A stretch of 64,000 nucleotides of DNA from Membranipora membranacea (Eukaryota > Bryozoa > Gymnolaemata > Cheilostomatida > Membraniporidae). The notes beneath the pieces are model-generated. The model did no database searches and was not told the DNA's origin. It saw only the letters and a list, made by a program, of their open reading frames with translations. The position numbers and the translations under genes were made by a program. Numbering within the stretch: position 1 is the stretch's first letter; each line of letters starts with the position of its first letter. Location of the stretch: contig OU612066.1 in assembly GCA_914767715.1 (NCBI GenBank), positions 24,712,283 to 24,776,282 on the forward strand, in the 5' to 3' direction. Below are positions 2,730-64,000 of this stretch, piece after piece.

Positions 2730-3418
2730 TTAATCATTATCACGATAAAGAAATTCTACAAAATCATCATTATCAAGTGTATAAACTCGATAGACACTGA
2801 GAGCGTCCTCCGAATCACAGTTTACACCCGATGGTGGATGAGTTAGTTTTGGGGCGGAATTATCTGATCTTTTTGGAAGTGATGTGTTACTGTGAGAACT
2901 TTTAGGAATTGTTACCAAAACAGGTTGCACTACCGTGTGTTAAGTTTCACAATGCTCTATGGAACTATTCCTGTGCACCTCAGCTTCAGCTGTCTGTTTC
3001 TTTTGGGTGAAGACTCTCAATCCCCGAGGCCCCCTGCAAGGCATTGGAGGTGTCTTTGGTACCTTTCTTTTTGACCTATAATGAGGTGCTCTCATGCTTG
3101 GGAAATTGGAAACCTGTTTTTTATGCAAATCTATGCCTCTCTTACTTATTTCCCGGGAAATCGATCCCAACAAATCCGATGAGGTCCGAGGTAGGTTTTC
3201 GGTTAAACTGTGCTCAGACCCGGCATCAGGTGATTTACTCCTTGCAGTTTCTTTGAAGTCGTACTGACCAATACTTGGGTTCACATTGCTCATCGTGTCA
3301 TACTCGTTTATCTCACAGTAGTCCAGATAAGGATCAGTTAGCTCGATCACTTCATAATCTGACACAGAATCGATGCGTCCTTTGTTCACATCAGCACTTT
3401 TACCGCATTCACCACCAT
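2730..3418 (-). pseudogene. Unit 1 exon 8: cytoplasmic tail, nonsense at 2940
   Basis: The exon follows an acceptor AG at 3420-3419 (phase 1). Tyrosine motifs in order are SDYEVI, LDYCEI and EYDTM; YEVI and YCEI are separated by 8 residues, fitting the ITAM spacing Yxx(I/L)x6-8Yxx(I/L), and each also fits an ITIM. A proline motif PPMPCR fits PxxPxR (SH3 ligand). A TAA at 2942-2940 (CET*HTVV, CETLHTVV in unit 2) removes the last ~66 residues, which would include SVYRVYTLD and end YRDND. Confidence 0.8.
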
Positions 3419-3690
3419 CTACATTAAATAACACATCAGTAAGTATAACAGAAACACAGCTTTAGACGACGCAGAATTCCATCTTCAAAGCCATCCTCCA
3501 TTGGTTTGGATATGAAGTCATATGTTTCGGACTACAACACTCTGATTTGTAAGAATTCATTTTGACTACTTGTAGCAATTAAAACGCTTCATGTCAATTT
3601 TTATTTCCAAACTTTCTTATTACCCCAGGCAAATATTCTTTAGGAATACTGGAGCCAAGTGTCTCATAGGAAACCTAAGATACTTGACTC

Positions 3691-3889: not shown

Positions 3890-4013
3890 ATGAGGGGGGA
3901 TTGGCTTATTCTAGCGATAACTCTCTTCATTGCTCCATATATTCATGCTACAAGCTATGAGTATGACGCCATGGGAATACGGATATGTAAAAAGCCCTAC
4001 CCCAAAAAGCCAG
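3890..4013 (+). CDS. Nested gene copy 1, exon 1 (signal peptide)
   Basis: The exon runs from the ATG to a GTGAGAA donor, phase 1, encoding a hydrophobic leader plus about 21 residues including one cysteine (RICKK). Confidence 0.75.
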
Positions 4014-4918
4014 GTGAGAATTTGTGTAAAATGCATTCCGGCTGCATATTTTCCAGTGAGCGCCAGCCAGCGGCCATGCAAGAAGTTTTGCAGATTGATA
4101 GTTCAAAATAGCCTTATCATTAGATCAAGTTTGATCCAGTTTTCCTGCATTCAGGTTTCTGCCATTCCACTAGTCACCCCGCAAGCAAACAGGGATCCAG
4201 AATAAGGACATAATCCATTGAGATTGTCAGGATTAACGCCCATATAACAGCAGATTGTACATCAAAAACTCAATGATGTCAAGGGAGGCAGTTTCTGAAA
4301 AGTAGGAGTTTAACAGCATGTAGCTATTTAAGCACCTCCCGACATTAAAAATCCCCCTTCAACATTTATAATTTTTTCCACTCATCATTTAAAATTCTTC
4401 AGAGTCTTCGGTTCATAATTCTTCAGACTCCGTAGAAAGGGTGTGTAAACTTTTGTCGTCTATATTGCTTACAGGCTTCAGAAAACATCATTATGTCAGA
4501 TAATGCTTACTGATATTTAAACATTTGAAATGACTGTTTTATCATATACTCATATTGTTGATTAATTATGTAAGGTATCAAAAGTGTTAATTATTTTCTC
4601 TTTTCATTTTTAGACATGTTTTGGCTGGCTCCGAATAAGACGACGATAAACGATTTTGACTGCATGGAAACTTGTCAGGAAAAGTTCAGCTATGACGGGA
4701 TACAAATATTTTCTCATCTGGCACAGAATGGCAAAAGTTGCAGCTGCAGGCTCTGCCCGGAAGACTATTTTCGTGGTGATAAATTTAAACAGTTACTAAG
4801 CCTTATGGGCTGCATGGATTTCGACAGTATGAAACGAAAATGGTATACAGACTATCGAGTGCTATTAGCTTATTATTGCAAGGATTTGGGGTCGACAGAA
4901 TACAAGCAGTATGGGTGA
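3890..4918 (+). CDS. Nested small secreted Cys-rich protein, copy 1
   Basis: Two exons: 3890-4013 and 4614-4918, joined in phase 1 (CCAG|GTGAG donor, TTTTTAG acceptor), giving 142 aa. The first exon encodes a signal peptide (MRGDWLILAITLFIAPYIHA) followed by a short basic/proline stretch ending KKPYPKKPG. The second begins DMFWLAPNKTT and contains seven of the eight cysteines (DC, TC, SCSCRLC, MGC, YYC). The chosen ATG is conserved in all four copies and starts the hydrophobic leader exactly; an upstream in-frame ATG is not conserved. The gene lies within intron 7 of receptor unit 1 on the opposite strand. The Cys pattern faintly recalls WSC/PAN-like modules, but I do not assign a family. Likely secreted; function unknown. 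A ligand, co-receptor subunit or antimicrobial role are all open. Confidence 0.75.
4614..4918 (+). CDS. Nested gene copy 1, exon 2 (Cys-rich domain, stop)
   Basis: The exon follows a pyrimidine-rich acceptor and ends ..QYG followed by TGA. The stop falls at the homologous position in all four copies, which argues against the GGGTGAAT there being a splice donor. Confidence 0.8.
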
Positions 4919-5527: not shown

Positions 5528-5583
5528 CTTCTACTGATGCTTCTGTGGATATTATTTGACTGGCAGATACCTTTGTTCTGACC
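5528..5583 (-). CDS. Unit 1 exon 7: juxtamembrane
   Basis: A 56-bp exon between TATCTAG acceptor and GTATGTGTC donor. It encodes RVRTKVSASQ... just inside the membrane: basic residues after the helix, consistent with a type I topology. Homologues: 36467-36409, 46586-46650, 54643-54585, 62320-62262. Confidence 0.7.
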
Positions 5584-10068: not shown

Positions 10069-10159
10069 GAAGTAGCAGATCGTTCCTCACATTATGTTGT
10101 TTTCTACACAGATTTATCTATACGAAATATCATTTAACCACTGACGCCTATTCACATAC

Positions 10160-10346
10160 CTCACTATAGTGCGATACCAAATCAGCAACATTGCTATGAC
10201 CATCAATAAACCCAGAGTTGGTGCAATGATGGATATGATGGATGCAGCAGATGGTATTGTTGAGTCGGTAACTGATTCTTTATTCGTGGTCAGTAGATCT
10301 CCATTTTGTGGCCCCTGGTCTCCATCATAGTTGCCATCAGTGCTCA
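10160..10346 (-). CDS. Unit 1 exon 6: stalk and transmembrane helix
   Basis: The exon enters in phase 1 (TTACAG acceptor) and leaves in phase 2 (GTGAG|GTATGT). It encodes a Ser/Thr/Asp-rich stalk, then a hydrophobic segment from about SAASIISIIAPTLG to MLLIWY, then RTIVR. In unit 1 the frame reaching this exon is shifted by the exon 5 lesion. Confidence 0.8.
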
Positions 10347-11158
10347 CTGTAAGCAAATCGAAGTATTTTGATGCTGAACAAAAACAGCTTGCTTATTTTC
10401 ACAGAAAAAGGGTAAAAAATCCAAGAATAACCTACAAGAGGCTAATATTGGAGAGCTAATATTGTAAAATCATACAATGAGCCATCTTGCATATTGACGT
10501 CACGCATGATCAGAAACTACTAGCCAGCAGCCACATCCTATTTATGGTGGTCATATTTGGAGTTTGCAAAAGTGTGAAGTTATAAGATGTCATAACCCCT
10601 GTATTCTGAGTTTTAACTCAATCATGATAAGAACTGTTGATCGGCAGCAATTTACTGTCAATGGGTCATATTGAATCTCGAGGTCATGTGATCAAAATTA
10701 ACAATGTCGTACCCGATGCTTTTCTCAGAACCTAATCACCTCTCACTAATTATTGTAATTAACAGACAGTATAAAATAATGAATCGTATTTCATATTTTC
10801 ATGTTGCAATTTCTCGTCTGAGACATATCGTGTGTTTCATGTTTCATGGAATTCTACTAAACAATTTTTCAGTTAAATAACCCCGAAAACTGTTGCAAGA
10901 TAAATAATAATAACACTTGCAATATTTGAAATGATAAAAACCTATTAAAAACAAAAGTTGTACAATGTTAAGTTGTATGAAAAGCCGACACAACCAAAAC
11001 ACAAGTCAAACAATGTAAATTTGTATGACTATAGTAAGCGAACACACATTAGCTAATGCAAAGACATTATGCCATTGAGTGATTTGATTCTTCAAGCTAT
11101 CAAATCAGCCATTTTTTGCAATGAAGGAAGATATTGGAAACAAAATAAAATGTGGTAC

Positions 11159-11348
11159 CTGCATAAGGGGGCAGAGTTTTCAGCAACACACTCCAGTGGA
11201 GGTTCCCATTGTTGACCTTGGCAGCTGAATGTATTGACCTTGTGGCGAAGTTCAAACCCAGACAGACAAGAGGCTTCATACGATTCAGGATCAACTCTCC
11301 TTAACTTATGCATGTTCAGATGTGTGATACTCGTATTACATGATCGCA
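11159..11348 (-). pseudogene. Unit 1 exon 5: SCR/Sushi module, frameshifted 3' end
   Basis: Four cysteines and a tryptophan in Sushi order: VRSC, EASC, TFSC, QQWEPPLEC. Copies in units 2 and 3 are 219 bp; this one is 190 bp, with about 30 bp lost after AAAACTC plus a 1-bp difference. It therefore leaves in the wrong phase and exon 6 hits a stop within a few codons. Confidence 0.8.
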
Positions 11349-11449
11349 CTACAAAATGATCAATCATTACTACATTTTATGGACTTTGGTATATAGATTG
11401 TATTTTACAATATGAAACCAAACCGTGATGTGATACAGATTATCGAAGG

Positions 11450-11800: not shown

Positions 11801-11896
11801 ATTATATTTAGGAAGTCAAACAGCTGCTCCGCAGATGCACAATGTATGACATTCCCAGCTATGAATACAATTTTTAATAAGTACACTCATACATAC

Positions 11897-12274
11897 CTGA
11901 GTAACTTATATGGATCTGTTCACCTTTCACATCATATCCCTCTAATGTTTCATAACGAAGTGTGATAGGCTCAGATCCGTGAAATATAAACGGCCGATTT
12001 CCGTCAAAATGCTTGCTAATATTGAAAGTATAGAAATCACTATAAAGGACAAAAGTCTGAACTTTTGCTAGTGTCTCATTTAACTGATATATGTGCATGG
12101 TAAGAGTCCCTGCTGCCGGAAAATTGCTAAGTACTGCATACATTAGATGGTTCCGTGTGACATTGTGGTTTAGCTCTTTCGAGGTTGGATAGTTGGTGAT
12201 GTATCCATCGGGGTATCGGCTGACATCGATATCATTATTGGAGTCTGATATTTTAAACAGAAACACAGGAAATA
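11897..12274 (-). CDS. Unit 1 exon 4: CUB-like domain
   Basis: A 378-bp phase 1-1 exon encoding about 126 aa. RYPDGYITNYPT resembles the G-x-I-x-x-x-x-YP opening of CUB domains and the end (IHISYSG) resembles their closing strand, but CUB cysteines are missing. N-glycosylation sites include NVT and NET. In-frame ATG and hydrophobic codons just upstream of the acceptor (to 12299) could give an alternative leader. Confidence 0.7.
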
Positions 12275-12487
12275 CTGAAAGAAAAAAAAAAGAATGCATT
12301 GAAATTCATTGTGGCAAATTACACAGCAAATAATTTTAATCTGATGAAAACCAAAAGCGTCCTGGATAAAGGAAACTGACACTGACAGGGCATCATCTCG
12401 CTGAATGAGCGAAGCCACCATCCGACAGGGTAGCAAGGCTTCAGAACCTTTATTTTTTCATTATAACCAACCAACAATTAACATTAC

Positions 12488-12919
12488 CTGCAAAATTGAT
12501 GTTAACTTTAGCCTTGACTCGGTTTTCGACCCACAGCAGCAATTCAATCTGTCCTCTGAAGTATTCCCTCTGTTCCAGGCACATTCCATTCTCTGTATAA
12601 CTAACTAGCGTTTTGTTTGACAGACATGGACCGCTGTTAGCGCTTTTATGGTTGAAGACGATAACACAGTTGTCACAAGAACCTTTAATCCGGATCTGGC
12701 GAAATTGTGGTTTGCTTTCGACTCCTGTAATCATTGCTCCACAGTATCATATTTTGTCAGAGCCCTTGCCATCACTTCTGTCATCCCAACTGCAAACACC
12801 AGGTTTATCTAAATTAATAGTGTCCACTGCAGTCAGTCCTCCTACCGGCAGACCTAAAACATTGCAATATCTGTCTGAGCATTTGGTGGCAAAGAGGTTC
12901 TTGATAGTATTAGATTTTA
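12488..12919 (-). pseudogene. Unit 1 exon 3: Cys-rich ectodomain of unknown family, nonsense
   Basis: A 432-bp phase 1-1 exon (acceptor CCAACAG, donor GCAG|GTAATG). Features: KCSDRYCNVLGLPVGG, CSWDD, GSCDNCVIVF, CLEQREYF, ending NINFAG. A TGA replaces AGA after SDKI (unit 2 reads SDKIRYCG). No family recognised; spacing and alternating hydrophobics suggest a beta-rich fold. Confidence 0.75.
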
Positions 12920-13148: not shown

Positions 13149-13216
13149 CTTGAGCAGACAATACTCCGTACAGAGCTATTATCGCTGTAAAACTTTTGGC
13201 AGTCCAAACAAACAAC
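13149..13216 (-). CDS. Unit 1 exon 2: signal peptide with split start codon
   Basis: A 68-bp exon encoding LFVWTAKSFTAIIALYGVLS plus AQ. Its first base G completes an ATG whose A and T are the last two bases of exon 1 (13388-13387), the intron falling inside the start codon. The hydrophobic leader then fits a signal peptide. Confidence 0.6.
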
Positions 13217-14240: not shown

Positions 14241-14243
14241 TTT

Positions 14244-15301: not shown

Positions 15302-15931
15302 TGCTATATTGAATATTAGTCAAATTCTAATAGCCATCATATGTTACTTTGGAGTTGCCCCACCACACATAAATTAAGGCAACTCCCATTTTTACATGTA
15401 GTTGGAATACAAAGGTATAAATAATATGACTCAGCCAGAAACCAGTCAGTCAGATAACGGCAACCAGATAGTGCAGACTACTATCATATTTCGTACTGAG
15501 GAATCATATTATACCTTTGTACCAACTACATATATATATACATCATTACAATTATGGATCCAAAGAAATCAACCAAAAACTTGTAGGACGCTACAACAAA
15601 AACAGAAAATAAAAACCGACAGAAAAAGCAAAAGAAAATAAAGGAAGAAGGCAAGAATGGGAAAGGGACTCTACTTATAACTGCTTACTGTACAACATGT
15701 ATACTCATGAGGACAGCTAGATTACTCATATGAGGATTATATTACTTGTAGAGTCACCCAGAAGGCTGGCGGCTAGTAGAGAGGACAATCCACTGATAGC
15801 TCTGTACTGAGAAGATCTTGCTTGAGCAAGTCAGACATTTGTAACAGTGATTTGAGGTGAGCCTGTTCTATCGATTGTATTGAGTTTAGTTGTATCGGTT
15901 ATTCTAAAACCCCTTAGTTTCAGATATAACA
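15302..15931 (+). repeat. Element A left LTR
   Basis: 630 bp, begins TG and ends CA, followed three bases later by the primer-binding-like site. Confidence 0.9.
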
Positions 15932-16093
15932 TAATGGTGGAACATAAGGGTTGTATTCAGAGGTACCCTCACTGCAAGCGAGTTGTTTCCTGTTGGTAGT
16001 TGTTCTTAGGCGCAGGGACGCGCCATTGTCGTTGTCAGCGAGGCTTAGAGTCTGTTATTTAAGTAGGGTATTTTGAAATTGGGCTAAAAAGCC

Positions 16094-16834
16094 ATGGATC
16101 AAATTCCTTCATTAATTAAACAAATTACAGTCTTAGCAAAGAACTATAAAAACCCACTTCACATCCCCATTTTCAATGATTCAGCAGAAGGGGTAAACTA
16201 TGCTGAATTCAAATTCAGATTTTGCAGCGTAGCAGGTGCTCTTGGTATTGCATCGCATCATCAGCAAATATCTCTATTAGGGTTGTTTTTCAAAGACTAT
16301 CCCCTCGCAGTTTTCAACAACAAGACCAAAGACTGCGACAATGTGAACGACCTATTTTCGTATATGGATAAGATTTTTGAGCCACTAATAAATGATGACT
16401 CGTATATTAAAATGATGGTTCAGCAAAATAAAATCCATCAGAATGCTGACGAGTCAGTCTCTTCCTTTCTGGCCAGAATAATGCGAGCCTTTGAGACAAT
16501 AGAGGGAGATGCATTGAGTTTGTATGTCGACCAGGCCCTTAAACAAGGCCTTAGATCAGACTTACTCAGATCATACTGGCTGAAATTCGGTTCTTTTAAA
16601 ATAATTAATTTGAATGAGGTGTATAGATTTCTTCGTTTTGAGGAGACATTGGATCATCACTTACAGAATAGTGATGGCGATGAGAGTTTCATTACAGGCA
16701 ACACATCTAGAACCCATAGCTCACAGGTTTTTAAAGGTACCAGAAAAAGGAAACGCCGAAGACGGCAAAATTATCTGCAAAACTGGTATTTGTTGATAAA
16801 TGCTTGGAGGTTCAGGAAGATTGTGTTGAGTTGA
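16094..16834 (+). CDS. Gag-like protein of element A
   Basis: A 246-codon ORF opening MDQIPSLIKQITVLAKNYKN. The centre (about residues 30-190) resembles retrotransposon gag capsid regions: an aromatic/charged helical domain with DESVSSFLARIMRAFE and DQALKQGLRSDLL. The C-terminus is basic (KGTRKRKRRRRQ) in place of a CCHC zinc knuckle. It lies 160 bp inside the left LTR. A second frame overlaps its 3' end. Confidence 0.65.
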   Translation: MDQIPSLIKQITVLAKNYKNPLHIPIFNDSAEGVNYAEFKFRFCSVAGALGIASHHQQISLLGLFFKDYPLAVFNNKTKDCDNVNDLFSYMDKIFEPLINDDSYIKMMVQQNKIHQNADESVSSFLARIMRAFETIEGDALSLYVDQALKQGLRSDLLRSYWLKFGSFKIINLNEVYRFLRFEETLDHHLQNSDGDESFITGNTSRTHSSQVFKGTRKRKRRRRQNYLQNWYLLINAWRFRKIVLS

Positions 16835-17154
16835 AGGTCCCACATACAGTATCATTTCAACCTCGCCCAATGGGTGAGTCTATGGCTAAGTTTAGCTTAG
16901 AAGCTTTTGGTATGCTTGAGAATTATTCAGTAACCCAGGAAGTTGTTTATCTCCCACCAAAAAGTCCCTTAGTTGAGCCATTTGCTGTCAGACGGATGGA
17001 AGATTATCAGCCCACAGAAAAACCTTCATGTACCATGAAGCCAGCGGCCGATCCTCAATGTGGAACTGTCACAATCACACCAGATTCATCATTAAAATTA
17101 TCAGCAAGGAAGGGCACAGACCCATTGTCTGATGAGGGCTATAATTCAGGGTAA
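16711..17154 (+). CDS. Overlapping downstream frame of element A
   Basis: Frame -1 relative to gag is open from 16711 to the TAA at 17152-17154, overlapping gag by 124 bp. A run A AAA AGG occurs in the overlap at 16743-16750 but is not a canonical slippery heptamer. The product (VSFQPRPMGESM..., DPLSDEGYNSG) has no recognised domain. It could be a frameshift extension of gag or a decayed remnant. Confidence 0.35.
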
Positions 17155-26270: not shown

Positions 26271-26272
26271 AT

Positions 26273-27445: not shown

Positions 27446-27449
27446 TAAA

Positions 27450-44282: not shown

Positions 44283-44302
44283 CATGATTGATTCCTCTGT
44301 AG

Positions 44303-46585: not shown

Positions 46586-46650
46586 GGTCAGAGAAAAGGT
46601 ATCTGCAAACCAAAAGATAACCGTATCAGGAACAGGAACATCATTAGGAG
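46586..46650 (+). CDS. Unit 3 exon 7: juxtamembrane
   Basis: 65 bp, RVREKVSANQKITVSGTGTS, GTATGTG donor. Confidence 0.7.
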
Positions 46651-47164: not shown

Positions 47165-48174
47165 TCATCCTAAAGGCTTGGAATTTTTTGATCCCCCAAG
47201 CTTGCAATAATATGCAAGGAGCACTAGAGCATCCTGATACCATCTTCGTTTCAAACTATCGAAATCTTTGCATCCCATAAGGCTAAGCAACTGTTTCAGT
47301 TTATCATTACGAAAATAGTCTTCCGGGCAGAGCAAGCAGGCACAACTTCTGTCATCCTCTGCTAGATAAGAAAATATTTGTATCCCATCATGGCTGAACT
47401 CAGTCTGACAAGTGTCCCTGCAGTCATAATAGTCTATTGTAGTTTTAGTTGGTGCCAGCCAAAACATGTCTAAAATGAAATGAGAGGTTATTTAACATTT
47501 TGATTAAATACCTTACGTCACCAGCACAATGCTTACAATTTAATAAGCTATTACAAACAGCCATTTCGAATGTTTAGATTCATTGAGCAACATATGACAT
47601 AATGATGAATTCTGATTCCTGTAAACGATATTGCTATCAGAAGCTTACACTTGCTACTGAGTGTGGGGAATTATAAATATTGGGAGGAGCTCAAATTGCA
47701 AAATGCTGCGATTCACAAATTGCCTCCCTCTATATTATTATGGACAATTCGAATTAGGCGTTGATTATTTGATCCCTCTTAGTTTTTTTTGGGGGGGGGG
47801 GCAGTGGAGCAACATCTATCCAAGTAAACTGGATCAAACTTAATCTAATGATAAGGCTACTTTGATCTATAGGTTACTCAATCTGCAACACATCTCTCAT
47901 GGCCAGAATCAGTGATAAAAATGTTGTATTAAAACGAGATGTCTCACCAAATTCATCAAAATAATGTACATATTAGCACAACAACAATCTCCCTATGACT
48001 GGCTCTCACTGAAAACATGCAGCCTGAATGCAATTTAATTGAAAACTCACCTGGTTTTTTAGGGTAAGGCTGTTTACATATCCGTATATTATCGCCGTCA
48101 TACTCATAGCTAGTAGCATGAAGATATGGAGCAATGAAGAGAGTTATCGCAAAACAAAGCCAAGCCCCTCTCAT
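47165..48174 (-). CDS. Nested small secreted Cys-rich protein, copy 3
   Basis: Exons 48174-48051 and 47469-47165 on the minus strand, opposite receptor unit 3. Leader MRGAWLCFAITLFIAPYLHA; mature part begins about TSYEYDGDNIRICKQPY. The second exon begins DMFWLAPTKTTIDYYDC, keeps the eight-cysteine framework (SCACLLCPEDYF), adds a leader cysteine, and ends KPLG then TGA. More diverged than copies 1 and 2 yet fully open with conserved splice sites. TATA-like TATATAAAC at 48268-48261 is 94 bp before the ATG. Confidence 0.75.
48051..48174 (-). CDS. Nested gene copy 3, exon 1
   Basis: 124 bp from ATG to CCAG|GTGAGT; signal peptide and basic proline stretch KQPYPKKPG. Confidence 0.75.
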
Positions 48175-48626: not shown

Positions 48627-49318
48627 ATGGCAATGAATGCGGTGAAAGTGCTGATGTGAAAGAAGGACGCATCGATTCTGTGTCAGATTATGATGTGATC
48701 GAGCGAACTGATCCATATCTGGACTACTGTGAGATAAACGAGTACGACACGATGAGCAATGTGAATCCAAGCCTCTCTCAGTATGATTCCAAAGAAACTG
48801 CCAGGAGTATATCATATGATCCCGAGTCTGAACACAGATCAACCAATACCCTACCACATGCTTCATCCGATTTGTTGGGATCGATTTCTCGGGAAATAAG
48901 TAAGAGAGGCATAGATTTGCATAAAAAACAGGATTACAATTTCCCAAGTATGAAAAGACTTAATTATGTTCAAAATAGAAAGGTACCCAACACACCTCCA
49001 ATGCCTTGCAGGGGGCCTCAGGGATTGCGAGTATTTTCAGAAAGACAGTTACAGACAACTGAAGCTGAGGTGCACAGGACCAATTCTGTAGAGCGATGTG
49101 AAACGTTACATACGGTACCGCAACCTGTTTCGGTAATAATTCCTAAAACGTCTCACAGTAACGCATCACTTCCAAAAAGTTCAGATAACTCCGCCCCAAA
49201 ACTAGCTCATCCACCATTGGGTGCAAGCTGTGATTCGGAGGACGCTCTCAGTGTTTATCGAGTTTATACACTTGATAATGATGCTTTTGTAGAATTTTTT
49301 TATCGTGATAATGATTAA
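48627..49318 (+). CDS. Unit 3 exon 8: cytoplasmic tail, fully open
   Basis: About 230 residues to TAA 49316-49318. Motifs in order: SDYDVI, LDYCEI (8 residues between YDVI and YCEI, ITAM-type), EYDTM (YxxM), SLSQYDSKE, TPPMPCR (PxxPxR), DALSVYRVYTLD, and the end FFYRDND. This is the best reference for the family's tail. Confidence 0.85.
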
Positions 49319-50309: not shown

Positions 50310-50587
50310 CTCCTGATAAAACCACCACTTAGATAGGATTAATAATAGATTTATGAGTGTCTTCGATTGAACAGCTGGTGATACAAGAAAACATAATAAA
50401 ATACAAGGAGATATGGTACCTTCCTCTCAACAGTTACATGGTGTGTTGACAAAAAATGAGAAGGGCTAAACCATATTCTGTGGTAATAGTTGCCTCATTC
50501 CTTTGTCTTTTACCAAAAAAAATTGAGAGATCCGACAACTTGATTAAAACCTTATCTAAAGTCCTGCATGACTACTTGGCCTTCTCA
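50310..50587. repeat. Dispersed repeat shared with 1350-1630
   Basis: Same sequence block lying directly before the Ngaro-like element, which appears to have inserted at its right edge. Confidence 0.55.
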
Positions 50588-51589
50588 AAATAAAGTTTTT
50601 GGTACAAAAAAGATTTTTTTCTGCCCTGATAACACCTCCCTTGTCTTGGCAATCAGTCCCAAGACAAGACAAATAATCCTAGGTCAACTGAATAAAAAGT
50701 TGCCCTCCCTCAACCAACTAAGGACAACTTATTGGTAAGGAAAACTTAGAACTACTGTTCTCAGCCAATGAGAGGCTTTCTTAGAACTATTGTTCTCAGC
50801 CAATGATAGGCTTTCTTAGAACTGCTGTTCACAGCTACTCACATATTCTTTCTTTCAATCTACATCCGGTCACCACGCCGGTCTTGAAAGAAAACAACTC
50901 TGTCAATTTATTTAATCTAGAGTCAACTCTGTCAACTCACCATGCCAGCTACACACTCAAAACTAGCCGCAGCTACTAACCAGGTATTTAATGCATAATG
51001 AGAACATATACTGGAACTTGAAGAAAGTATTCTCATTGATTTGATAGTGAAGACTGACTAGAAAAACTTTCAAATTCAACTCAGATTGAATCTATTCATC
51101 ATTATGATAATAATGTAGGCAGTGAACTAGCTCATTGATGATCATTCAACCAAGAGTGATTCAACCAAGGAGTACCCTGTTACTCTTTGATGCAACACCA
51201 TTATATCCAAGGGATTCCATTATAAGATTTTTGGTCCTGAGATGACTTGACTGGTCAGAGTTATGTTACCAATTGATGGAGAGTGGAGTCACCTCCCAGG
51301 TAACGTAGTTACTACATATTGGTGGTTATTCCCCTTGTAGTCAAATTCATATTGAATTCACACGAAAAGTCCACACTTACGCCTGTCTCTAAAAATGTTA
51401 CTAATGTATTTCTAAGACACCTTTTCAAAAAAAAAAAAAAAAAATTTAAATTTAAATAAATTAAAAAAAAATGGAGAATAGAAAAATGACTTAAATAAGA
51501 TAAATAAAAGACTCCTTGCACAACATACGCTGGGAGCAGCCAAACTATTACAGTTAAAGAAAAAATTGGTAAGTTCTACCAGGGAGTAA

Positions 51590-51690: not shown

Positions 51691-51819
51691 GCTTGCTATT
51701 ACTGTTTTCCTTGTTCCCATTATACTTTCATACTAACAAATTGGGCTCCGCTTTGTACATAGTACAAGTGAATACATGCCTCCAGATTATGTAGACAAAG
51801 TAGTCAACAATCTGACCTA

Positions 51820-52527
51820 TTGCAAGTGAGTCTACCATCAAGACTACTAGGTAAACTTTGCCATCTTTCCCAGATTGTAGTAGCAGGCCGTGCATACCTC
51901 AGTAGTGTGTATGGCAGTCTAAAGGGTATCATGTCATCTGATCAAAATCACATGCGGCATATATCTTGTGAGACCAGATCTGATTTGGTTGTATGGAGAG
52001 ATTTTCTGTCTTATTTAGCACCCGGTAAACAGTTCCAATATCTTGTGGCAGGGGCTGTAGACTTCACTCTGGTCACTGATGCTTCAGGATCAATAGGATA
52101 TGGAGGTTTTTGGGGAAACACCTGGTTCCATGGGATGTGGCCAGATGAACTTTGGACAAACTTAAACATCACAGTTCTAGAGCTGTTCCCCATATTCGTA
52201 GCAGTGCACATGTGGCAGAAAAAATTTGCAAATTCAGTGGTTGAGGTCAGGACAGATAATGGGGCCCTAGTCTCTATTCTAGAACATCTGTATTGTAAAG
52301 ATGCTGTTGTGAGAAAGCTACTACGCCCCTTGGCGCTCCTATGCATGCAACAAAATATTCTCCTAGTGCCCAGACATATCCCAGGATTAGAGAACATTGC
52401 TGCAGATTTGTTGTCCAGAAATAAAATCAGAGAATTTAAACTCCGTTTCCCCACCATGGCTGCCTGTCCAACTAGCTTACCGGTACACTTGTGTCCGAGT
52501 AGGGTAAAAGATAAATACTGGTCGTAA
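51820..52527 (+). CDS. Ngaro-like RT C-terminal part and RNase H
   Basis: About 235 codons. The first ~85 residues (LPSRLLGKLCHLSQIVVAGR...) match the thumb/connection region typical of DIRS/Ngaro polymerases. RNase H follows: LVTDAS (first Asp), VLELFPI (Glu), VRTDNGALV (Asp), and ENIAADLLSR near the end (final Asp). The palm motif (YxDD) is not present, so the 5' part of pol is missing. The frame has no ATG here and is open further upstream, consistent with a truncated polyprotein. Confidence 0.8.
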   Translation: MQVSLPSRLLGKLCHLSQIVVAGRAYLSSVYGSLKGIMSSDQNHMRHISCETRSDLVVWRDFLSYLAPGKQFQYLVAGAVDFTLVTDASGSIGYGGFWGNTWFHGMWPDELWTNLNITVLELFPIFVAVHMWQKKFANSVVEVRTDNGALVSILEHLYCKDAVVRKLLRPLALLCMQQNILLVPRHIPGLENIAADLLSRNKIREFKLRFPTMAACPTSLPVHLCPSRVKDKYWS

Positions 52528-52758
52528 GGTGACAAATAATAATATCTATTTTTCTTTTCTAATCATAAGTACAAAAGTGACCTTTGAGCCTCAGGACGTG
52601 AAGCGCGGGGGTGAGAAGGTCAAAGCAAACACATGACATTAATTATTATTGTGCAATGTTTATTTTAGAAATATAAGTACGTACTCATACATAAAAGATT
52701 ACCTGCACTATTTATTTCAGGTCTGAGAGCTAAGGCGAGGGGCTACTTAGACAAGTCT

Positions 52759-53571
52759 TTGTCCGAGGGCTCCAAGAAGTCTTACGATCGATTTTACAAC
52801 CAATACAAAATGTTCTGCTCTGAGCACAAGCTCAAAAAATTCTCTACTTCGTCAATGGAGTTGTGGGTCACAAACCTGGCACAAGAAGGAAAGAAACACA
52901 GTGCAATCCTGTCACATGTGTCAGCAGTAAAATTCTTTTGCGTAAAAAAGAACAGTGAGGTTACCTTTGCTACTCATAAACTAAAGTTAATATTGAGGGG
53001 TATAAAAAACTCACAGGGTAGAACCCAAAAGAAAACACAGGCGATATCTCTTGACCAACTACACACTCTGATCACTAAGGTAGAGCAGGTCTTGGGAAGT
53101 ATAGATGGGAGGCGCTTTTCTGCCATGGTATCTTGTGCTTTTTATGGATTCTTACGCCCTAGCGAGTATTGTATATCTTCAGCAGGGCATCATATGTCTG
53201 TTGGTGATGTGTGTTTTAGCAAGGGTGCCATGGAAGTGCACATTAATTCTTTCAAGAATTCTGCAGAGTCTGCAAGCATTATGATTAAAGCAGTAGGGGG
53301 AAAGACATGCCCAGTTTGCCTCGTTAAGAGGTATTTAAAACACTTGAAACCCTCCAGCAGCAGCACTTTGTTTGAAGTCACAACAGCAGAGTTCAGAAAA
53401 GAGTTCAGTGAAGTCCTAAAGGATTCAAAAATAGAGGGCTGGGTCACTCCTCACTCACTGAGACGAGGTGGCGCTACCTGGGCTAGCATTCAGGGCTGGT
53501 CTGACTCAAGAATAAGATCTTTTGGCAGGTGGTCATCCGATGCCTTCAAGAAATATATCTTGATAAACTAA
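52759..53571 (+). CDS. Ngaro-like tyrosine recombinase
   Basis: About 270 residues beginning near SEGSKKSYDRFYNQYKMF. Recombinase active-site pattern is complete by eye: Arg in GFLRPSEY, HSLRRGG (H-x-x-R), and the nucleophile Tyr in RWSSDAFKKYI close to the C-terminus. N-terminal core-binding region is helical (AILSHVSAVKFF). The open frame extends a little upstream of 52759. Stop TAA at 53569-53571, 65 bp before repeat B1. Confidence 0.85.
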   Translation: MSEGSKKSYDRFYNQYKMFCSEHKLKKFSTSSMELWVTNLAQEGKKHSAILSHVSAVKFFCVKKNSEVTFATHKLKLILRGIKNSQGRTQKKTQAISLDQLHTLITKVEQVLGSIDGRRFSAMVSCAFYGFLRPSEYCISSAGHHMSVGDVCFSKGAMEVHINSFKNSAESASIMIKAVGGKTCPVCLVKRYLKHLKPSSSSTLFEVTTAEFRKEFSEVLKDSKIEGWVTPHSLRRGGATWASIQGWSDSRIRSFGRWSSDAFKKYILIN

Positions 53572-54584
53572 GGTGCAGTTTTGGCGAAACAATTGTTCTG
53601 AGCTTGCTAGGTATGCCTCGCTCAATACAATTGGTTTGGTGTTCATTTGTTCGTCAATTCTGCACCAGATTTAACAACTAATACTATGGCAAGTACCCTG
53701 TCTGCCAAACAACATTTACAGTGGCGTTGATCGTCACTTTCGGTTACAAATGCGTGAAGCGCACCATATTTTTTTCCCCTATAATATGTTACATTATAAG
53801 AAAGAAAAAATAAAGTTTTTGGTACAAAAAAGATTTTTTTCTGCCCTGATAACACCTCCCTTGTCTTGGCAATCAGTCCCAAGACAAGACAAATAATCCT
53901 AGGTCAACTGAATAAAAAGTTGCCCTCCCTCAACCAACTAAGGACAACTTATTGGTAAGGAAAACTTAGAACTACTGTTCTCAGCCAATGAGAGGCTTTC
54001 TTAGAACTATTGTTCTCAGCCAATGATAGGCTTTCTTAGAACTGCTGTTCACAGCTACTCACATATTCTTTCTTTCAATCTACATCCGGTCACCACGCCG
54101 GTCTTGAAAGAAAACAACTCTGTCAATTTCCCTCCCACCTCCCTATCACTAACTTATGTCGTCCATTGTGGAAATGCTAACAATTTCCTGGTGATGGTGT
54201 TCATTTGTTCGTCAATTCTGCACCAGATTTAACAACTAATACTATGGCAAGTACCCTGTCTGCCAAACAACATTTACAGTGGCGTTGATCGTCACTTTCG
54301 GTTACAAATGCGTGAAGCGCACCATATTTTTTTCCCCTATAATATGTTACATTATAAGAAAGAAAAAAGTAATAATAATAAACCTAAACAGGACACTATA
54401 TATAGCACTTAATTGTGGGTGGTGTTACAATGCTGGATTGTGGTAGCAATAAGCTACCATTGATTTACCTGTCAGAACCTGTCAGAGATTTTACGCCTTA
54501 ACCAAAGAAACTAAAATACATGTCTAATAAACTTGTAAATTACAGATAAAAGCACCACATCAATCATGGAAAGCTGACACATAC

Positions 54585-54811: not shown

Positions 54812-55393
54812 AGGCAACTTTATATATATATATCACTTTAAGTTATTGAGAGCTTGCTCTGTGACGCTAAACGATTTAATTACCCTAGATGAGTAAATTA
54901 TTCGCAGAAGAAAAAGTTAATAATTTAACAAATGATTGAACCTTTCATTGTTCAACATCAAAGCCTAGCTAATATTTACTCATCCGTTTTTAAGTTCCAG
55001 AGGACATTATGTCACCCCGAAACTAACTAAACTAAACTCTAGCTAACCTTTATTCCTCTAGAGTGTGGGAGACTCCATAATTTGATAATTAAAATGATTC
55101 CTTATACCAGAGTGCTGGGTAACCAAGTTAAAAGTTGTAAGATTTAGACCAATATCAGTCGATGCGCAGACATACCTTCACAAAGTCATCTTAAACTTAC
55201 ACCTTCGTTATAACAGACAGTTGATTGCCTTTTTGTATAAGGAAGTGGCCAAATTACACTGTAATATTAACACAATGCTAAGGACATTGTTGTCAAAATA
55301 ATGTTTCATTGTTTCTAGATTAAATTTAGTTCCTACTTTTTGCCCACACAGAACGATCAATGCAAAAACACGCTACAGAAACAATTCACATAC

Positions 55394-55601
55394 CTCACTA
55401 TAGTGCAGTACCAAATCAGTAACATTGCAATGACTGTAAATAAGCCCAGAGTTGGTGCAATGATGGATATTATAGAAGCAGCAGATGTTATTGTTGAGTC
55501 GTTAGGAACTGTTTTCTCAGTCTTGGTTTGTCTAGTTCCACTGGTTAGTTGCTCTAGACTTCGAGGCTCCTGATCTCCACCATCTATGTGGTCAGTTGTC
55601 C
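55394..55601 (-). CDS. Unit 4 exon 6: stalk and transmembrane helix
   Basis: 208 bp; longer stalk (EKTVPNDSTITS), then IISIIAPTLGLFTVIAMLLI, WYCTIVR. Confidence 0.8.
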
Positions 55602-55830
55602 CTGTAAGCAAGTCATATTATTGATGATGGCTTTGCACTGTGGGAATTGTAAGATGTGTAGGTAAAAAGAGCTTCATAAAAGAAATACAGAAATAGTTGT
55701 AAGATTGGAGTCTAGGAAAATGCACTGATTCTATACAATCAGTCAAAAACATTTTGGTTTTCAGTTTAACTTGTAGTTATAATAAGACGGTAAAGGGAAA
55801 CACACACACTGTACAAATAAAAGTCAGAAC

Positions 55831-56046
55831 CTGTGTCTGGGGAAGATTCTGTTGTGTGTGTGTGAACACTCACATTTTGAACAATACATTCCAGCGGTGG
55901 GTCCCATTGCCGATCGTTGCAGCTGAATGTGTGAGCTTTGTGTCGAAGCTCAAACCCATGCAGACAAGAGGCTCTGTAGTTCTGATCAGTTTCCCAGTCT
56001 AACCCTCCCATGTTTAGATTTGTAACATTTGTATTACAAGACCGCA
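55831..56046 (-). CDS. Unit 4 exon 5: SCR/Sushi module
   Basis: 216 bp, open. VRSC, RASC, TFSC, PLEC, with RQWDPPLEC; NMGGLDWETDQNYRASC groups it with unit 5 rather than units 1-3. Confidence 0.85.
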
Positions 56047-56101
56047 CTAAAAATTGATCAATCATGATTACATTCATTTGCGTATGTTAGAGTAAGAATA
56101 T

Positions 56102-56138: not shown

Positions 56139-56445
56139 GATGATGGTATAATATAAAAGGAACATAGAATGATGAATCATTTTGCGTAAAATCTTGCACA
56201 TTATCAAAACCATGACGGTCTGATGGTAGATGGAATATACTTTGCTAATGATATGATATGACATATGATGCAACTGACTTCCAGTAATATGGTTGCTTCA
56301 CAGATGCACACTATTGGATCTTTTCAAAAGCTCAATGCTCAGATGTTACATGACACTAAAATCCTAGGGGTGCAGCATCCAGGCTATCAAATTCATTTTA
56401 CGTCCATTGGACACCTCAGATATAATAAGTACATAAAATACATAC

Positions 56446-56793
56446 CTAAATACCTGATGTTGATCAATTCATCTTTCATATCATATCCCTCTTCTGGTTG
56501 ATATTGCAATGTGATGCTTGAAGGGCCAAAAACCTTCACATCCCGATTGATGTCAGAATGGTGTGATAAATCATAAAAAAAATCTGAGTTGAATTTTTTG
56601 AGTTTTTGAACTTTTGCTTGTGCCGCATCAATCCGATATATGTATATAGTCACAGTTCCTGCTACTGGCAAATTAATAAGTCCCGCTTGCATAACTTTGT
56701 TTGATTTGATCTTGCGATATTTTCCTGTTATGTATCCATCTGGGTAGCGACTGGCATCAGAGTCTGACATTACAAACAGAAACACAGGAAATA
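56446..56793 (-). CDS. Unit 4 exon 4: CUB-like domain
   Basis: 348 bp, open; RYPDGYITGKYRKIKS, ends INIRYLG-type. Ten codons shorter than the other copies. Confidence 0.75.
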
Positions 56794-57026
56794 CTGCAAG
56801 AAATGACAGTGAAAACATGCATTAGAATTCAATATGGTAAATTTTCACAGCAGACAATTTACGTGATGAAAGGTAAACTTGGTTAGTGAATGTAGGGCTA
56901 TTATGGGAAATGGATACTGCTAGGAAATCATCTAGCTGAATGGGCAAAATTGATACAATAGGATAGTTAGGCTTAACATCATAATCTTTATTTTTTGATC
57001 ATAACCAACCTGCAATAAACATTTAC

Positions 57027-57457
57027 CTGCAAATTTGATGATAATTTCAGCCTTGACTCGGTTTTAACCCACAGCAGTAAATCAATCTGGCCTCAGAAGT
57101 ATTCCCTCTGTTCCAGGCACGTTCCATTCTCTGGATTACTAACTATCGTTTTGTTCGACAGACATGGGCTGCTGTTAGTACTCCGATGATTAAAGACGAT
57201 AACACAGTTGTCACAGGAACCTTTAATCCGGATCTGACGAAGGTGTGGTTTGCTTTCGACTCCTGTAGTCTTTGCTCCGCAGTGTTTTATTTTGTCAGAG
57301 CCCTTGCCATCATTTCTGTCATCCCAACTGCAAACACCAGGTTTATCTAAATTAATTGTGTCCTCTGCAGTCAGTCCTCCTACCGGCAGACCTAAAACAT
57401 TGCAATATTTGTCTGAGCATTTGGTGGCAAAAATGTTATTAATAGGAATAGATTTTA
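57027..57457 (-). pseudogene. Unit 4 exon 3: Cys-rich ectodomain, nonsense plus frameshift
   Basis: 431 bp. KCSDKYCNVLGLPVGG and CSWDDR are intact, but TTCTGAGGC replaces TTCAGAGGA (stop after QREYF) and one base is missing near GGGTTAAAACC. Confidence 0.8.
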
Positions 57458-57680: not shown

Positions 57681-57748
57681 CTTGAGCAGACAATACTCCG
57701 TACAGAGCTATTATCGCTGTAAAACTTTTGGCAGTCCAAACAAACAAC
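57681..57748 (-). CDS. Unit 4 exon 2: signal peptide exon
   Basis: 68 bp, identical peptide to unit 1 (LFVWTAKSFTAIIALYGVLS AQ); the exon supplying AT of the start codon is lost. Confidence 0.6.
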
Positions 57749-59870: not shown

Positions 59871-62800
59871 TTAATTATTATCACTAATAAAAAATTCTAC
59901 AAACATTCATCATTATCAAGTGTATAAAACCCGATAAACAGATAAACACTGAGAGCTTCCTCCGGATCACAGTTTACAGCTGGTGGTGTATGAGTTTGTT
60001 TAAGGATGATCTCCACTTTCTGGTAGGTTTGGTGGTTTAGGTTTTGCACAAGCACTATTTTTAGGAATTCCTTCCGAAAACAGGTTGCGGCCTTGTGTGA
60101 AAAGTTTCGCATTGCTCTGCCGAACTGTTTCTGTGCACCCCAGCTACAGTTATCTGCTGTCTTTTAGAAAATACTCTCAATCCCCGAGGCCCTCTGCAAG
60201 GCATGGGAGGTGTTTTTGGTACTTTCCTTTTTGGGCAATGATTTGGTCTTTTCATGCTGGGGAAATTGGAAACCTGTTTTTTATGCAAATCTATGCCTCT
60301 CTTACTTATTTCCCGGGAAATCGATCCCAACAAATCTGTTGAAGGACATTTGAAGTTTTCAGGTAGCTTGTGTTCAGGCTCAGCATCAAGGCTTTCATCA
60401 GATGATTTACTCCTCATAGTTTCTCTTTGGTCGTACTGCCCACTGCTTGGGTTCACATTGCTCATAGTGTCGTACTCGCTTATCTCGCAGTAGTCCAGAT
60501 AAGGATCAGTTTGCTCGATCACTTCATAATTTGAGACAGAATCAACTTCTTCTTTTGTCGTGGCAGTACCCTCATCGCCATCTAAGATAAATACAACATC
60601 ACTTTAGAATGAAAATATCAGATCGATTACAAAGAACAGCACTTCATGCCATTCCCTATATTGATAGATACATCCATAGTATGTCTCTTAATATTGACAA
60701 CTTTCACCGAAAACTAATAATATGAAATGAAAGGCGTATTTTGGAAAGAGTTGTCCCCCCTGTTTGCTACGGTTGAAATTCCATAAAACCCAATCTTGTG
60801 ATTCCTGTTTTGAGGGTGTGGGCGTACAAAATTTACTTCTGCTTAATGATATATGGAACAACTTTCATAAAACTCATTTTTTAAACTACTTGTAAAAAGA
60901 CAAGGAAACTATGTAGGAAGGTATTTCTGCAAAGAAGATTGTAGATCATGTGTGTACAAATCATCATCTCAAAATGATTAAATGCATCATTGCACTTTCA
61001 ACTGTCAGATGTTTGGCATAATCAAGGTGTTTGTGAGGACAGTTGAGATACTTGACTTTTCAACCACAAATGCGTAATCATCTTAACAAAACCACAATAA
61101 TCAGAGCAGTGCGTGATACTAGTGACAATCAGGGATAAGACCTCCAATCATATAAATGTGAAAAGGGATGCGTGAAATCAGAACTTGCTAAGGTCAATCA
61201 TTAACAAGAAGCACTTTTTCCTTCGTTTTTGGGTCAGCACAAATAATTATGAGAGGAGCTTGTCTTATTTTAGTGGTAACTATCGCCATGACCCCATTTC
61301 TTCATGGTATGGAATACGTCCCAACTGGAATTGATGGAGTTCGGACATGTAAACGACCCTACACTAAAAGACCAGGTGAGTCTCTCAGTATATGATGTAG
61401 GCCATAAACATCAATTGTACGTAAATGTGAATGTTAAGGTCATATGAAATTCAATAAATAAAATTTCCCTGATATTGACTAAGTGTGTTTATATGTATCA
61501 ACTAAGGCATTGGAGGGGGAATGTATATTTTCCTGTGCAGATTGACAGCCACATATGAAAGCCATGAAGATTATTGGTGTTGAGTCTGTATTTGATAATA
61601 TTATTGGCTCAAAAGTGACCAAATAAATTCAATTTATTCATCCTTGATTTCGACCATGATAGAGATGGTCAGACCAATAGAGTGTTTTTAGTAAAGCACT
61701 TATCATCACTTCAGATATTAATGTTGAACAGTAAAACATTCCATTCTCTCTTTTTTAGACATGTTTTGGTTGGCCCCATCAACAGCGATGACACATTTTG
61801 GCTGCATGGACAATTGTCAAAAGTTTGGTTCTGAGGAGATAAGAATATTTTCCTATCTTGAAGATGATTATCCCAGGTGTGTTTGCAGGCTCTGCCCAGA
61901 GGATTATCTCGGTGGTGACAAACTGAATTTGTTACTTACACTGATGGGGTGCGGAGATATCCAGAGTTTGAAACAAAAATGGTATTATAACGAGCGCAAA
62001 TTCCTGGCTTATTATTGCAAGGTTGGGCATTTGGGTTAATCACCTTTATGATATTTCGGTTACATCACATGCTTTCATACAATAACTTTCAAACATCAAT
62101 GATTATTGTGAAAGCATTTGTATTTTGTAATTGTTAACTTATGATATTTCCAACTGCGTCTGGAAACAGTCATGTTCTAAACTATTTTATAATTTTCACT
62201 GACAGTCTTGTTAATAGTAATGAAATAAGTGGCAAATAAAACACTGTTGGCTGTCACATACCTTGTATTGCTGCTCCTGCTTCGGCCTGTATTCTGTTTG
62301 CAGAAACTTTAGCTTTGACCCTAGACAAACAATAACAGGGTGGTTAAATATCTTTTCAAAAATATTTAAGACAGCCTGCTGTAAGCATTTCACCATTGTT
62401 GTCACACATACCCAAGCCCAGACAGTTGCAGTTGGCAAAAGGGCGGACTCCGAGTTAAAAGTGGTAAAACTCAGCCCCAATATCATCCCATGTGCACATA
62501 TACCCATACCATCATAAAGGCTAGAACACACTATAAGGTATCATAATAGTTTTCATGAACCATTTACGTAGTGCACAGTGAACAGGACGCACTGATAGTC
62601 ACATTCCAATGTAATCTTCTGTAGAGGTAGTGAGCTAATCCGGGCTGTTGAGTCCACCCAAAGTATATGATTTGTCTTATCAAGATAATTACGCAAGATA
62701 ATTATGCAACAGTAAGCCGGAAAAACTCAGGCAAAAAACCAAGCAAAATATTTCTATTGAGAAAACGGTTTGAGGTTTCTAGTGTAATGCAGTTCTAATT

Positions 62801-64000
62801 TTCCACTGAGGAATATTCACATACCTCACTATAGCGCAATACCAAATCAGCAACATGGGAACAACTGTCAATAAGCCCAGAGCCACTCCACAAATGGATA
62901 TTATGAAGGTAGCAGTTGTAATTGTTGAATCGCCAGAGGTTTTCGTGGTTCCATTATTCTGAGACCTCCGATCTCCATCATAAATGCCGTCAGTTGTCTC
63001 TGTAAGCAATCCAAGTATTTATAATATATATTATTTGTACACATACGCTTTCCTCCAAGGCTATGGTAGTTGGAAGCCAAAGTTTTACAGAATATTTTAT
63101 GTATATATATATCAGAATACTCATTTAAAGTTGTGAATCAACTCCTTTCATCTCAGAAAGACGTAAAGTATATCAGTACATATGAAATTGTAGTACTTGT
63201 ATCAGGGGTAGATTCTGTCGCGTATGTTGAGTTTTGAGCAATACATTCCAACGGTGGCTCCCATTGCCGATGTTTGCAGCTGAATGTGTGAGCTTTGTGT
63301 CGAAGCTCAAACCCATGCAGACAGGAGGCTCTGTAGTTCTGATCAGTTTCCCATTCTAGTCCTCGCATGTTCAGATTTGCAATGTTCGTATTACAGGACC
63401 TCACTAAAAATCAATCAATCATGATTACATTATTAAGTGTGGTAATGTGAAGGCATGATAATAGTATCTCATACACTGGGCATAGAACGATGGTAAATAA
63501 AGTTTGTTGAAATGTACTTAAATTTCATTGCGTCAAGGTTTATCAAAACAACAAATTTTGAACAACATAATGTAAATTAAAATTTACATTGGTTTTGATA
63601 TAGTATATTATGTGACTGACACTGAACAGACAGTGATATAGTTTCCGTTGCTTGATCTTATACATTCTCAGATACAAAAATTTTATGCTACATAACACCA
63701 ACTTAAACCCAAGGCTTTTTATCACCTGCTGTCCTATCAAATTCATATGCAGCCACTGTGACATAATCAGTATATCAATACAAACCTGAATATCGGATGT
63801 GGATCACTTCATCTTTCACATCATATCCTGGCAATGGTTGATAAAACAGCTTGATATCGTGTGGGCCATAAAGTTCCAATAGCGGATTTCTGTCCGAACG
63901 GTTTGTTAAGTCGACAAACTTTTCATAGTTGGAGAGTTGGAACGTGTTAACTTTTGCTAATGTATCGTTTAGTTGATAAATGAGCATTGTCACAGTTGAT
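59871..64000 (-). CDS. Receptor unit 5: partial copy entering from beyond the window
   Basis: Exons seen: 3' part of exon 4 (64000-63786), exon 5 63403-63197, exon 6 62999-62825, exon 7 62320-62262 and tail 60581 onward. The first three and the junctions are open. The tail is frameshifted late (one extra base near GTTTTCGGAAGG) and stops at about 60061, losing the C-terminal Tyr motifs but keeping the ITAM-type pair. It may therefore be functional with a shorter tail; the 5' exons must be examined outside the window. Exon 5 ends ACAA|GTACTA, a slightly unusual donor context. Nested copy 4 lies in intron 7. Confidence 0.65.
60061..60581 (-). CDS. Unit 5 exon 8: tail, shortened by frameshift
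   Basis: About 173 residues. SNYEVI and LDYCEI (8-residue spacing), EYDTM, TPPMPCR are present; ends QPVFGRNS then TAA. Remnants of the lost end (EEALSVY, YTLDNDE) persist in another frame to about 59900. Confidence 0.75.
61061..61100 (+). promoter_or_regulatory. Conserved twin-ACCACA block, nested copy 4
   Basis: CAACCACAAATGCGTAATCA then ACAAAACCACAA; the best-conserved non-coding block in this diverged copy. Confidence 0.4.
61151..61156 (+). promoter_or_regulatory. TATA-like box, nested copy 4
   Basis: TATAAA 98 bp before the ATG at 61249. Confidence 0.45.
61249..62039 (+). CDS. Nested small secreted Cys-rich protein, copy 4
   Basis: Exons 61249-61375 and 61759-62039, about 135 aa. Leader MRGACLILVVTIAMTPFLHG, then GVRTCKRPYTKRPG. 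The second exon starts DMFWLAPSTAMTHFGC and keeps the cysteine framework (RCVCRLCPEDYL, LMGCGD, AYYCK), ending HLG then TAA. It is the most diverged copy: short deletions near the first cysteines and at the C-terminus, but splice phase, cysteine order and stop region are preserved. Located opposite and inside intron 7 of receptor unit 5. Confidence 0.75.
61759..62039 (+). CDS. Nested gene copy 4, exon 2
   Basis: Follows TTTTTTAG; open to TAA at 62037-62039. Confidence 0.75.
62262..62320 (-). CDS. Unit 5 exon 7: juxtamembrane
   Basis: 59 bp, RVKAKVSANRIQAEAGAAIQ. Confidence 0.7.
62825..62999 (-). CDS. Unit 5 exon 6: stalk and transmembrane helix
   Basis: 175 bp; FIISICGVALGLLTVVPMLL then IWYCAIVR. 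Shorter stalk than other copies. Confidence 0.8.
63197..63403 (-). CDS. Unit 5 exon 5: SCR/Sushi module
   Basis: 207 bp, open; MRSC/VRSC-type start, RASC, TFSC, PLEC and RQWEPPLEC. Confidence 0.85.
63786..64000 (-). CDS. Unit 5 exon 4: CUB-like domain, cut by window end
   Basis: Open from the window edge to the donor; YQLNDTLAKVNTFQ and IHIRYSG match the other copies. Confidence 0.7.

Follow-up and report, generated by a model that had tools for sequence, protein, structure and literature searches.

Receptor-like genes of Membranipora membranacea hold a putatively secreted cysteine-rich gene antisense in their last intron: a possible co-inherited recognition system

The Themis proteins of Ciona comprise a polycystin-like s-Themis and a fibrinogen-like v-Themis, both of them highly polymorphic. 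The receptor gene holds its partner antisense in an intron, and recombination hardly separates the two; the partner lies in the first intron, there are three gene pairs, and s-Themis has egg-jelly-receptor, GPS and LH2 domains (PMC7018956). The FcoR proteins of Botryllus are described as single-pass type I receptors with a Sushi module and a long tail carrying Y-x-x-I/L/V motifs, encoded in variable multigene clusters (PMC12065747). For Botryllus fester, one paper finds no conserved domain in exons 3 and 4 and a short consensus repeat (SCR), or Sushi module, in exon 5 (PMC3549757), and a later review gives the ectodomain as immunoglobulin (Ig) plus Sushi (PMC12065747). Here we describe a cluster of receptor-like genes on contig OU612066.1 (C2) of the bryozoan Membranipora membranacea, in which a putatively secreted partner gene is nested antisense in the last receptor intron. 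The window, that is, the whole 64,000-nucleotide stretch analysed, spans C2:24712283-24776282, and the genome searched covers 339.3 Mb on 18 contigs. An earlier note on the window, made from its letters, had proposed a tandem, inverted and decaying array of five receptors with tyrosine-motif tails, related or parallel to fester.

Self-comparison and tblastn found five homologous copies of a putative type I receptor gene, about where the earlier note had placed them. The main exons of different copies match each other with tblastn E-values from 1e-11 to 1e-126, which excludes chance likeness. Copies 1, 2, 4 and 5 lie on the minus strand and copy 3 on the plus strand. In the direction of transcription, the exons encode a signal peptide, a Cys-rich domain, a region labelled CUB-like, a Sushi module, a stalk with a membrane helix, a juxtamembrane segment and a tail; signal peptide, helix, secretion and membrane topology were judged by eye. 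The long tail is present in four of the five copies, and all four of these hold a two-exon gene on the opposite strand between the juxtamembrane and tail exons. This nested antisense gene, which we call N, was absent from the earlier note and is the best-preserved part of the locus. In copy 4, which has no long tail, neither a tail nor N was found after the transmembrane exon.

N lies at 3890-4915 in copy 1 (plus strand; exons 3890-4011 and 4613-4915), at 34801-35801 in copy 2 (plus; 34801-34922 and 35499-35801; 142 residues), at 47168-48174 in copy 3 (minus; 48174-48053 and 47470-47168) and at 61249-62036 in copy 5 (plus; 61249-61374 and 61758-62036), in each case without a lesion. The predicted product is a signal peptide followed by a mature protein of about 115-120 residues, in which eight cysteines are invariant among the four window copies. 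All four share one donor, CAG|GTGAG, and one acceptor, TTTTAG|AC. The TATA-like sequence TATATAAA, some 100 bp ahead of the start codon, and an AATAAA behind the stop codon each occur in copies 1, 2 and 3; copy 5 has neither at the corresponding places. Exon 2 of N was open at all 20 loci read across the genome, and at one of them (L046) it is shortened before the last cysteine. The N copies scanned gave no convincing match to a Pfam family. A WSC or similar module was rejected, with no such Pfam match and no meaningful PDB match. A protein search returned two environmental fragments that are near-identical to N of copies 3 and 5 and that probably come from the same or a close species.

The same arrangement recurs across the genome. 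Searches gave at least 69 matches to N exon 2 and at least 117 to the tail, the latter merged into 93 loci; these are lower bounds. We scored a pair where an opposite-strand tail lay within 4 kb 5' of N, and called a match strong at E-values up to 1.1e-14. On this definition 53 of the 69 N matches are paired with a tail, on contigs C1, C2, C3, C4, C6, C9 and C11. They include 42 of the 51 strong matches, with the tail at 557-1687 bp, and 11 of the 18 weak ones, which are 32-40% identical. At the 20 N loci read, an opposite-strand tail was present at 19, and the twentieth (L048) showed only a weak juxtamembrane-like match (E-value 0.05). Wherever both the juxtamembrane and the tail exon were found, N sits between them. 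Across 10-11 units of the window's cluster, distances between N copies follow those between receptor exons (Mantel r of 0.73 for tail, 0.77 for Sushi, 0.85 for CUB-like and 0.87 for helix), which indicates that receptor and N duplicate as one block. We consider the best reading, at a probability of roughly 0.5, to be that receptor and N are co-inherited pairs of a recognition system, with N as the putative secreted partner.

A second cluster, at C9:13.24-13.61 Mb, has 28 N exon-2 matches against 12 in the window's cluster, and some of its N copies have no detected tail. Divergent tail clusters without detected N lie at C3:26.73-26.87, C5:10.78-10.82, C8:26.89-26.90 and C9:7.69-7.72 Mb; they point to a wider tail superfamily.

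With flanks of 100 kb scanned, the window's cluster starts 7.3 kb ahead of the window and reaches about 149 kb in window coordinates. It comprises at least 14 units, complete or partial (U0-U13), and some fragments lie farther out. We counted lesions with a frameshift-aware scan of the exons found, with exon ranges set by hand and the U9 tail aligned in part. The receptor exons carry 14 stops and 18 frameshifts, or 32 lesions in 21,045 nt, whereas the N exons carry none in 4,761 nt (12 copies). At the receptor rate about 7.2 lesions would be expected in N, and the Poisson probability of finding none is about 0.0007, a rough figure because copies share lesions by descent; one frameshift in the signal exon recurs at an identical position in U6, U8 and U10. 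At least one receptor lesion was found in 13 of the 14 units. The exception is copy 3, which has no lesion in its retained exons and in which neither a signal nor a Cys-rich exon was found. The tandem, inverted and decaying multigene arrangement proposed earlier is borne out, with four copies on the minus strand, one on the plus strand and most of them broken, and it continues into a larger cluster and further clusters. The 32 receptor lesions would also suit an artefact or a dead region of decayed duplications with chance open frames, but this is highly improbable: N is unbroken and constrained in the cluster, unbroken receptor exons occur on another contig, and the geometry is repeated genome-wide.

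Constraint was measured as the ratio of mean nonsynonymous to mean synonymous divergence (dN/dS) over cluster pairs for eight exon types. N exon 2 had the lowest value (0.29 over 66 pairs, with single pairs at 0.11-1.86). The other values were 0.32 for the signal exon, 0.34 for Sushi, 0.47 for Cys-rich, 0.48 for CUB-like, 0.50 for N exon 1 and 0.63 for the helix exon. The tail gave 0.49, based on only three frameshift-free copies, two of them with a stop, and 0.16-0.43 in a separate comparison of the window copies. Some single pairs exceeded 1, with maxima of 1.86 in both N exon 2 and the helix exon. Copies 1 and 2 have a dS of 0.06 in the Cys-rich exon (12486-12869 and 38784-39167) and of 0.39 in the tail (2733-3395 and 33665-34315), which suggests that their ectodomain underwent gene conversion.

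Several observations weigh against co-inherited recognition pairs. All 12 N copies of the cluster are unbroken, against lesions in 13 of its 14 receptor units; that N survives where receptors break suggests that it may work without its host receptor, acting in trans on the receptors of other clusters or having a role of its own. That the partner outlasts the receptor in this cluster is in itself unexpected. A tail is missing at 16 of the 69 N matches (9 of the 51 strong ones, 7 of these 9 at C9:13.247-13.340 Mb), and in four other cases N and a tail are neighbours within 4 kb but differently arranged. N went undetected at 40 of the 93 tail loci; many of these tails (on C3, C5, C8 and C9) are divergent, so N there was either missed or is absent. 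A stop is present in 6 of the 51 strong N matches genome-wide. Block duplication alone could hold two unrelated genes together. Positive selection was sought, and the mean dN/dS was above 1 in none of the eight exon types and below 1 in all.

In one alternative, N is the real functional family, a secreted cysteine-rich defence or coat protein multiplied by duplication, and the receptor a hitch-hiking host that is being lost, the two products never interacting. The intact N copies amid broken receptors, the lowest dN/dS of all exon types in N exon 2 and the missing tail at 9 of the 51 strong N matches all argue for it. We nevertheless regard it as unlikely, considering that the geometry is kept at 53 of the 69 N matches, weak ones included, and that receptor tails retain their motifs at about 30% identity. 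Receptor exons are also unbroken elsewhere: the exon matches of a C9 copy (L049) have neither a stop nor a frameshift, and of the 54 tail matches with E-values up to 1.1e-14, 26 are stop-free and 28 contain stops, tail matches being longer than N matches.

The earlier note had described long tails with tyrosine motifs in four copies, and we found them in copies 1, 2, 3 and 5. The tail of about 220 residues contains a tyrosine pair, YxxI-x8-YxxI, a YxxM and a proline motif. The pair has the spacing of an immunoreceptor tyrosine-based activation motif (ITAM), defined as YxxI/L-x6-8-YxxI/L. Scanning with the pattern Y..[ILV]-x6-8-Y..[ILV] recovered it in 23 of 24 tails, comprising 18 of 19 from this genome and all five environmental relatives; in the sole exception, L035, the first tyrosine is absent. 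When the L049 tail was shuffled 20,000 times, the pattern appeared in 2.7% of the shuffles. At 28-33% identity to the tail, one environmental relative (P0007) still has YEVIERTNPYSDYQSI and a C-terminal DALSVYDIYT. Both tyrosines also fit the core of an immunoreceptor tyrosine-based inhibitory motif, so that either an activating or an inhibitory output is possible. ITAM-bearing receptors are phosphorylated and bind Syk-family proteins. Vertebrate ITAM receptors share the tyrosine pair; here, unlike there, the motif lies in the chain that bears the ectodomain, and no sequence relation was found.

If receptor and N do form recognition pairs, an engaged ectodomain would lead the receptor to signal through Src/Syk-type phosphorylation of the YxxI-x8-YxxI pair. 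N would be a soluble partner of the receptor, as a ligand, co-ligand or blocker. Antisense nesting would keep N linked to its receptor, possibly with expression in other cells, as for v-Themis within s-Themis. The pairs might then serve self/non-self recognition, between gametes or blood cells, or the recognition of pathogens. A purely pathogen-sensing family, comparable to the activating natural killer-type receptors of vertebrates, with N as a soluble pattern-binding co-factor and no part in allorecognition, would fit the ITAM-like tail, the Sushi module and the birth-and-death clusters. We think this improbable to a similar degree as a hitch-hiking receptor, since a self-recognition pair inherited together would be the likelier setting for a nested gene that resembles a ligand gene.

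A comparison of copy 2 with the distant C9 copy, read from the sequence, settled the exon model; receptor coordinates give the extent of the matches and may miss the splice sites by as much as about 20 bp. A conserved signal peptide exists, as the earlier note had supposed, but in a different exon (39450-39515 in copy 2) and with a start codon split by an intron, the 5' exon ending in AT and the signal exon starting with G. The hydrophobic frame ahead of it, which may be the leader that the earlier note meant, was rejected as a signal peptide: it has no ATG back to the previous stop in copies 1-3, its phase joins the split ATG, and it contains stops in the C9 copy. It is probably 5' untranslated region. 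Phases are consistent from the split start through the tail, with the juxtamembrane exon, which the earlier note lacked, between helix and tail. In the signal, Cys-rich, CUB-like and juxtamembrane exons checked, AG/GT splice sites are found where they would be expected.

The CUB-like, Sushi and membrane-helix exons each occur in all five copies, the CUB-like exon of copy 5 being cut by the window end; the Sushi module and the single helix (judged by eye) agree with the earlier description. Support for Sushi is modest: Pfam gave an E-value of 7e-4 in one of five members, and a profile search matched one factor H chain at 2.3e-6, the next match having an E-value of 0.3; the C9 copy had no Pfam Sushi match. 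The Cys-rich exon, with six cysteines, is as described earlier in copies 1, 2 and 4 within the window and in copy 5 just outside it, but not in copy 3. The CUB label is not supported. The exon contains no cysteine in any of the five window copies, where a CUB domain would have its own, and the CUB-like exons scanned gave no CUB match in Pfam or among PDB sequences. No convincing Pfam family was found for the Cys-rich, CUB-like, tail or N exons scanned, the CUB-like exons giving only chance-level matches, and hhalign found no match between Cys-rich and CUB-like that would make them an internal duplication. The joined receptor had no homologue at an E-value of 0.01 among 8000 candidates scored from 5.8 billion proteins.

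This anatomy resembles FcoR, with a single helix, a Sushi module, a long tyrosine-motif tail and multigene clusters. It differs in that FcoR have a V-type and two C2 Ig domains, against a Cys-rich domain, a CUB-like region and ITAM spacing here. The partner of FcoR is a neighbouring fester gene, beside a HECT E3 ligase gene; here the receptor gene is paired with N, nested antisense and putatively secreted. No pair of C2 Ig domains was found between the Sushi module and the membrane: about 400 bp separate the Sushi and helix exons in copy 2, and stalk and helix follow directly on Sushi. For a V-type Ig ahead of Sushi, the Cys-rich exons scanned gave no Pfam match, and the CUB-like exon matched Pfam at chance level and none of the PDB sequences. 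A signal peptide, domainless exons and one Sushi exon are common to the present family, fester (FF1) and uncle fester (FF3); the Botryllus pair differ by their three membrane helices and short tail, against one helix and a long tail here. That the receptor is an orthologue of fester or FcoR allorecognition receptors, with N incidental, would account for the two domainless exons ahead of Sushi, as in fester (PMC3549757), and for the single-pass build, tyrosine-motif tails and variable clusters, as in FcoR (PMC12065747). With no Ig match and one helix instead of three, we judge this orthology quite unlikely; the likeness to fester proposed in the earlier note extends to domain order, but neither the C2 Ig domains of FcoR nor the three helices of fester were found.

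In gene layout the family matches Ciona Themis, since here too the partner is nested antisense in a receptor intron. Ciona has three pairs and uses the first intron, against 53 N-tail pairs and the last intron here. The present receptor is ITAM-tailed, and its N belongs to no known family; no polycystin-like or fibrinogen-like Pfam domains were found in the receptor exons or N copies scanned. N appears to point at least as much to the Themis type as to fester. Lacking the C2 Ig pair and the three helices, the family is filed with neither FcoR nor fester. Set against the published descriptions, it is Themis-like in gene layout and FcoR-like in receptor anatomy and is assigned to neither. More tentatively, and as a possibility rather than a probability, it may be a nested receptor/ligand system distinct in its domains from Themis and far larger, a co-inherited lock-and-key repertoire for self and non-self. 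In such a system the last intron of each ITAM-type receptor gene would contain, antisense, the gene for that receptor's secreted ligand, and recombination would not split receptor/ligand haplotypes. We found no description of this nested arrangement in the open-access literature searched.

The individual copies differ in completeness. Copy 1 (minus strand) has its tail exon at 2733-3395, with YEVI-x8-YCEI, YxxM, RKVPKTP, a C-terminal DALSVYRVYT and one in-frame stop, followed upstream by the juxtamembrane (5529-5579), stalk and transmembrane (10138-10377), Sushi (11170-11352) and CUB-like (11895-12275) exons. Its Cys-rich exon (12486-12869; splice sites 12853 and 12488) contains one in-frame stop, and its signal exon (13150-13215) is preceded by the intron that splits the start codon. 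Copy 2 (minus) consists of tail (33665-34315), juxtamembrane (36410-36466), stalk and transmembrane (36754-36948), Sushi (37355-37579), CUB-like (38127-38507), Cys-rich (38784-39167; splice sites 39151 and 38786, open) and signal exons. A one-base frameshift stands at the start of its tail relative to copies 1 and 3 (34240-34330); by reading, a transcript that omits the juxtamembrane exon and splices to a downstream AG would avoid it.

Copy 3 (plus) retains the CUB-like (43010-43390), Sushi (44299-44523) and transmembrane (45844-46086) exons, the first part of the juxtamembrane exon as a weak match (46590-46613), and an open tail (48650-49315). Copy 4 (minus) has transmembrane (55384-55617), Sushi (55838-56050), CUB-like (56444-56794), Cys-rich (57025-57407, with a stop and a frameshift) and signal (57682-57747) exons. 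Copy 5 (minus) begins with a tail (59874-60546) that has three frameshifts towards its 3' end, and continues with juxtamembrane (62263-62316), transmembrane (62803-63003) and Sushi (63192-63407) exons. Its CUB-like exon runs from 63784 to the window end at 64000 and on to 64170, and its Cys-rich (64408-64761) and signal (65014-65079) exons lie outside the window.

Mobile elements lie between some copies. The stretch 15417-27960, between copies 1 and 2, is probably a large retroelement of recent insertion: it has direct repeats of 516 bp that are identical (15417-15932 and 27445-27960), a 99.8% repeat (20241-21418 and 26270-27447) and a frame that looks gag-like by eye (16088-16834). In the interval from copy 3 to copy 4, two frames at 51772-53571 show a weak RNase-H-like match and a tyrosine recombinase (Phage_integrase, E-value 2.8e-6). 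Direct repeats of 323 bp, identical to each other, lie on either side (50587-50909 and 53807-54129), and the element looks like a DIRS/Ngaro-type retroelement. Outside the window and upstream of the cluster, at C2 24.614-24.664 Mb (-98 to -49 kb), tandem long frames appear ankyrin-repeat-like and linker-histone-H1-like by eye.

Ascidian allorecognition and self-sterility receptors and their ligands are known for few species, and it is a puzzle how a receptor and its ligand continue to fit each other as each diversifies. If the reading of co-inherited pairs is true, dozens of ITAM-type receptor genes, many of them interlocked with a secreted cysteine-rich partner, would provide a list of candidate receptor-ligand pairs. 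The family would also link the Themis layout to FcoR-like and fester-like receptors, and it would provide a natural case in which to test whether antisense nesting keeps co-adapted pairs together.

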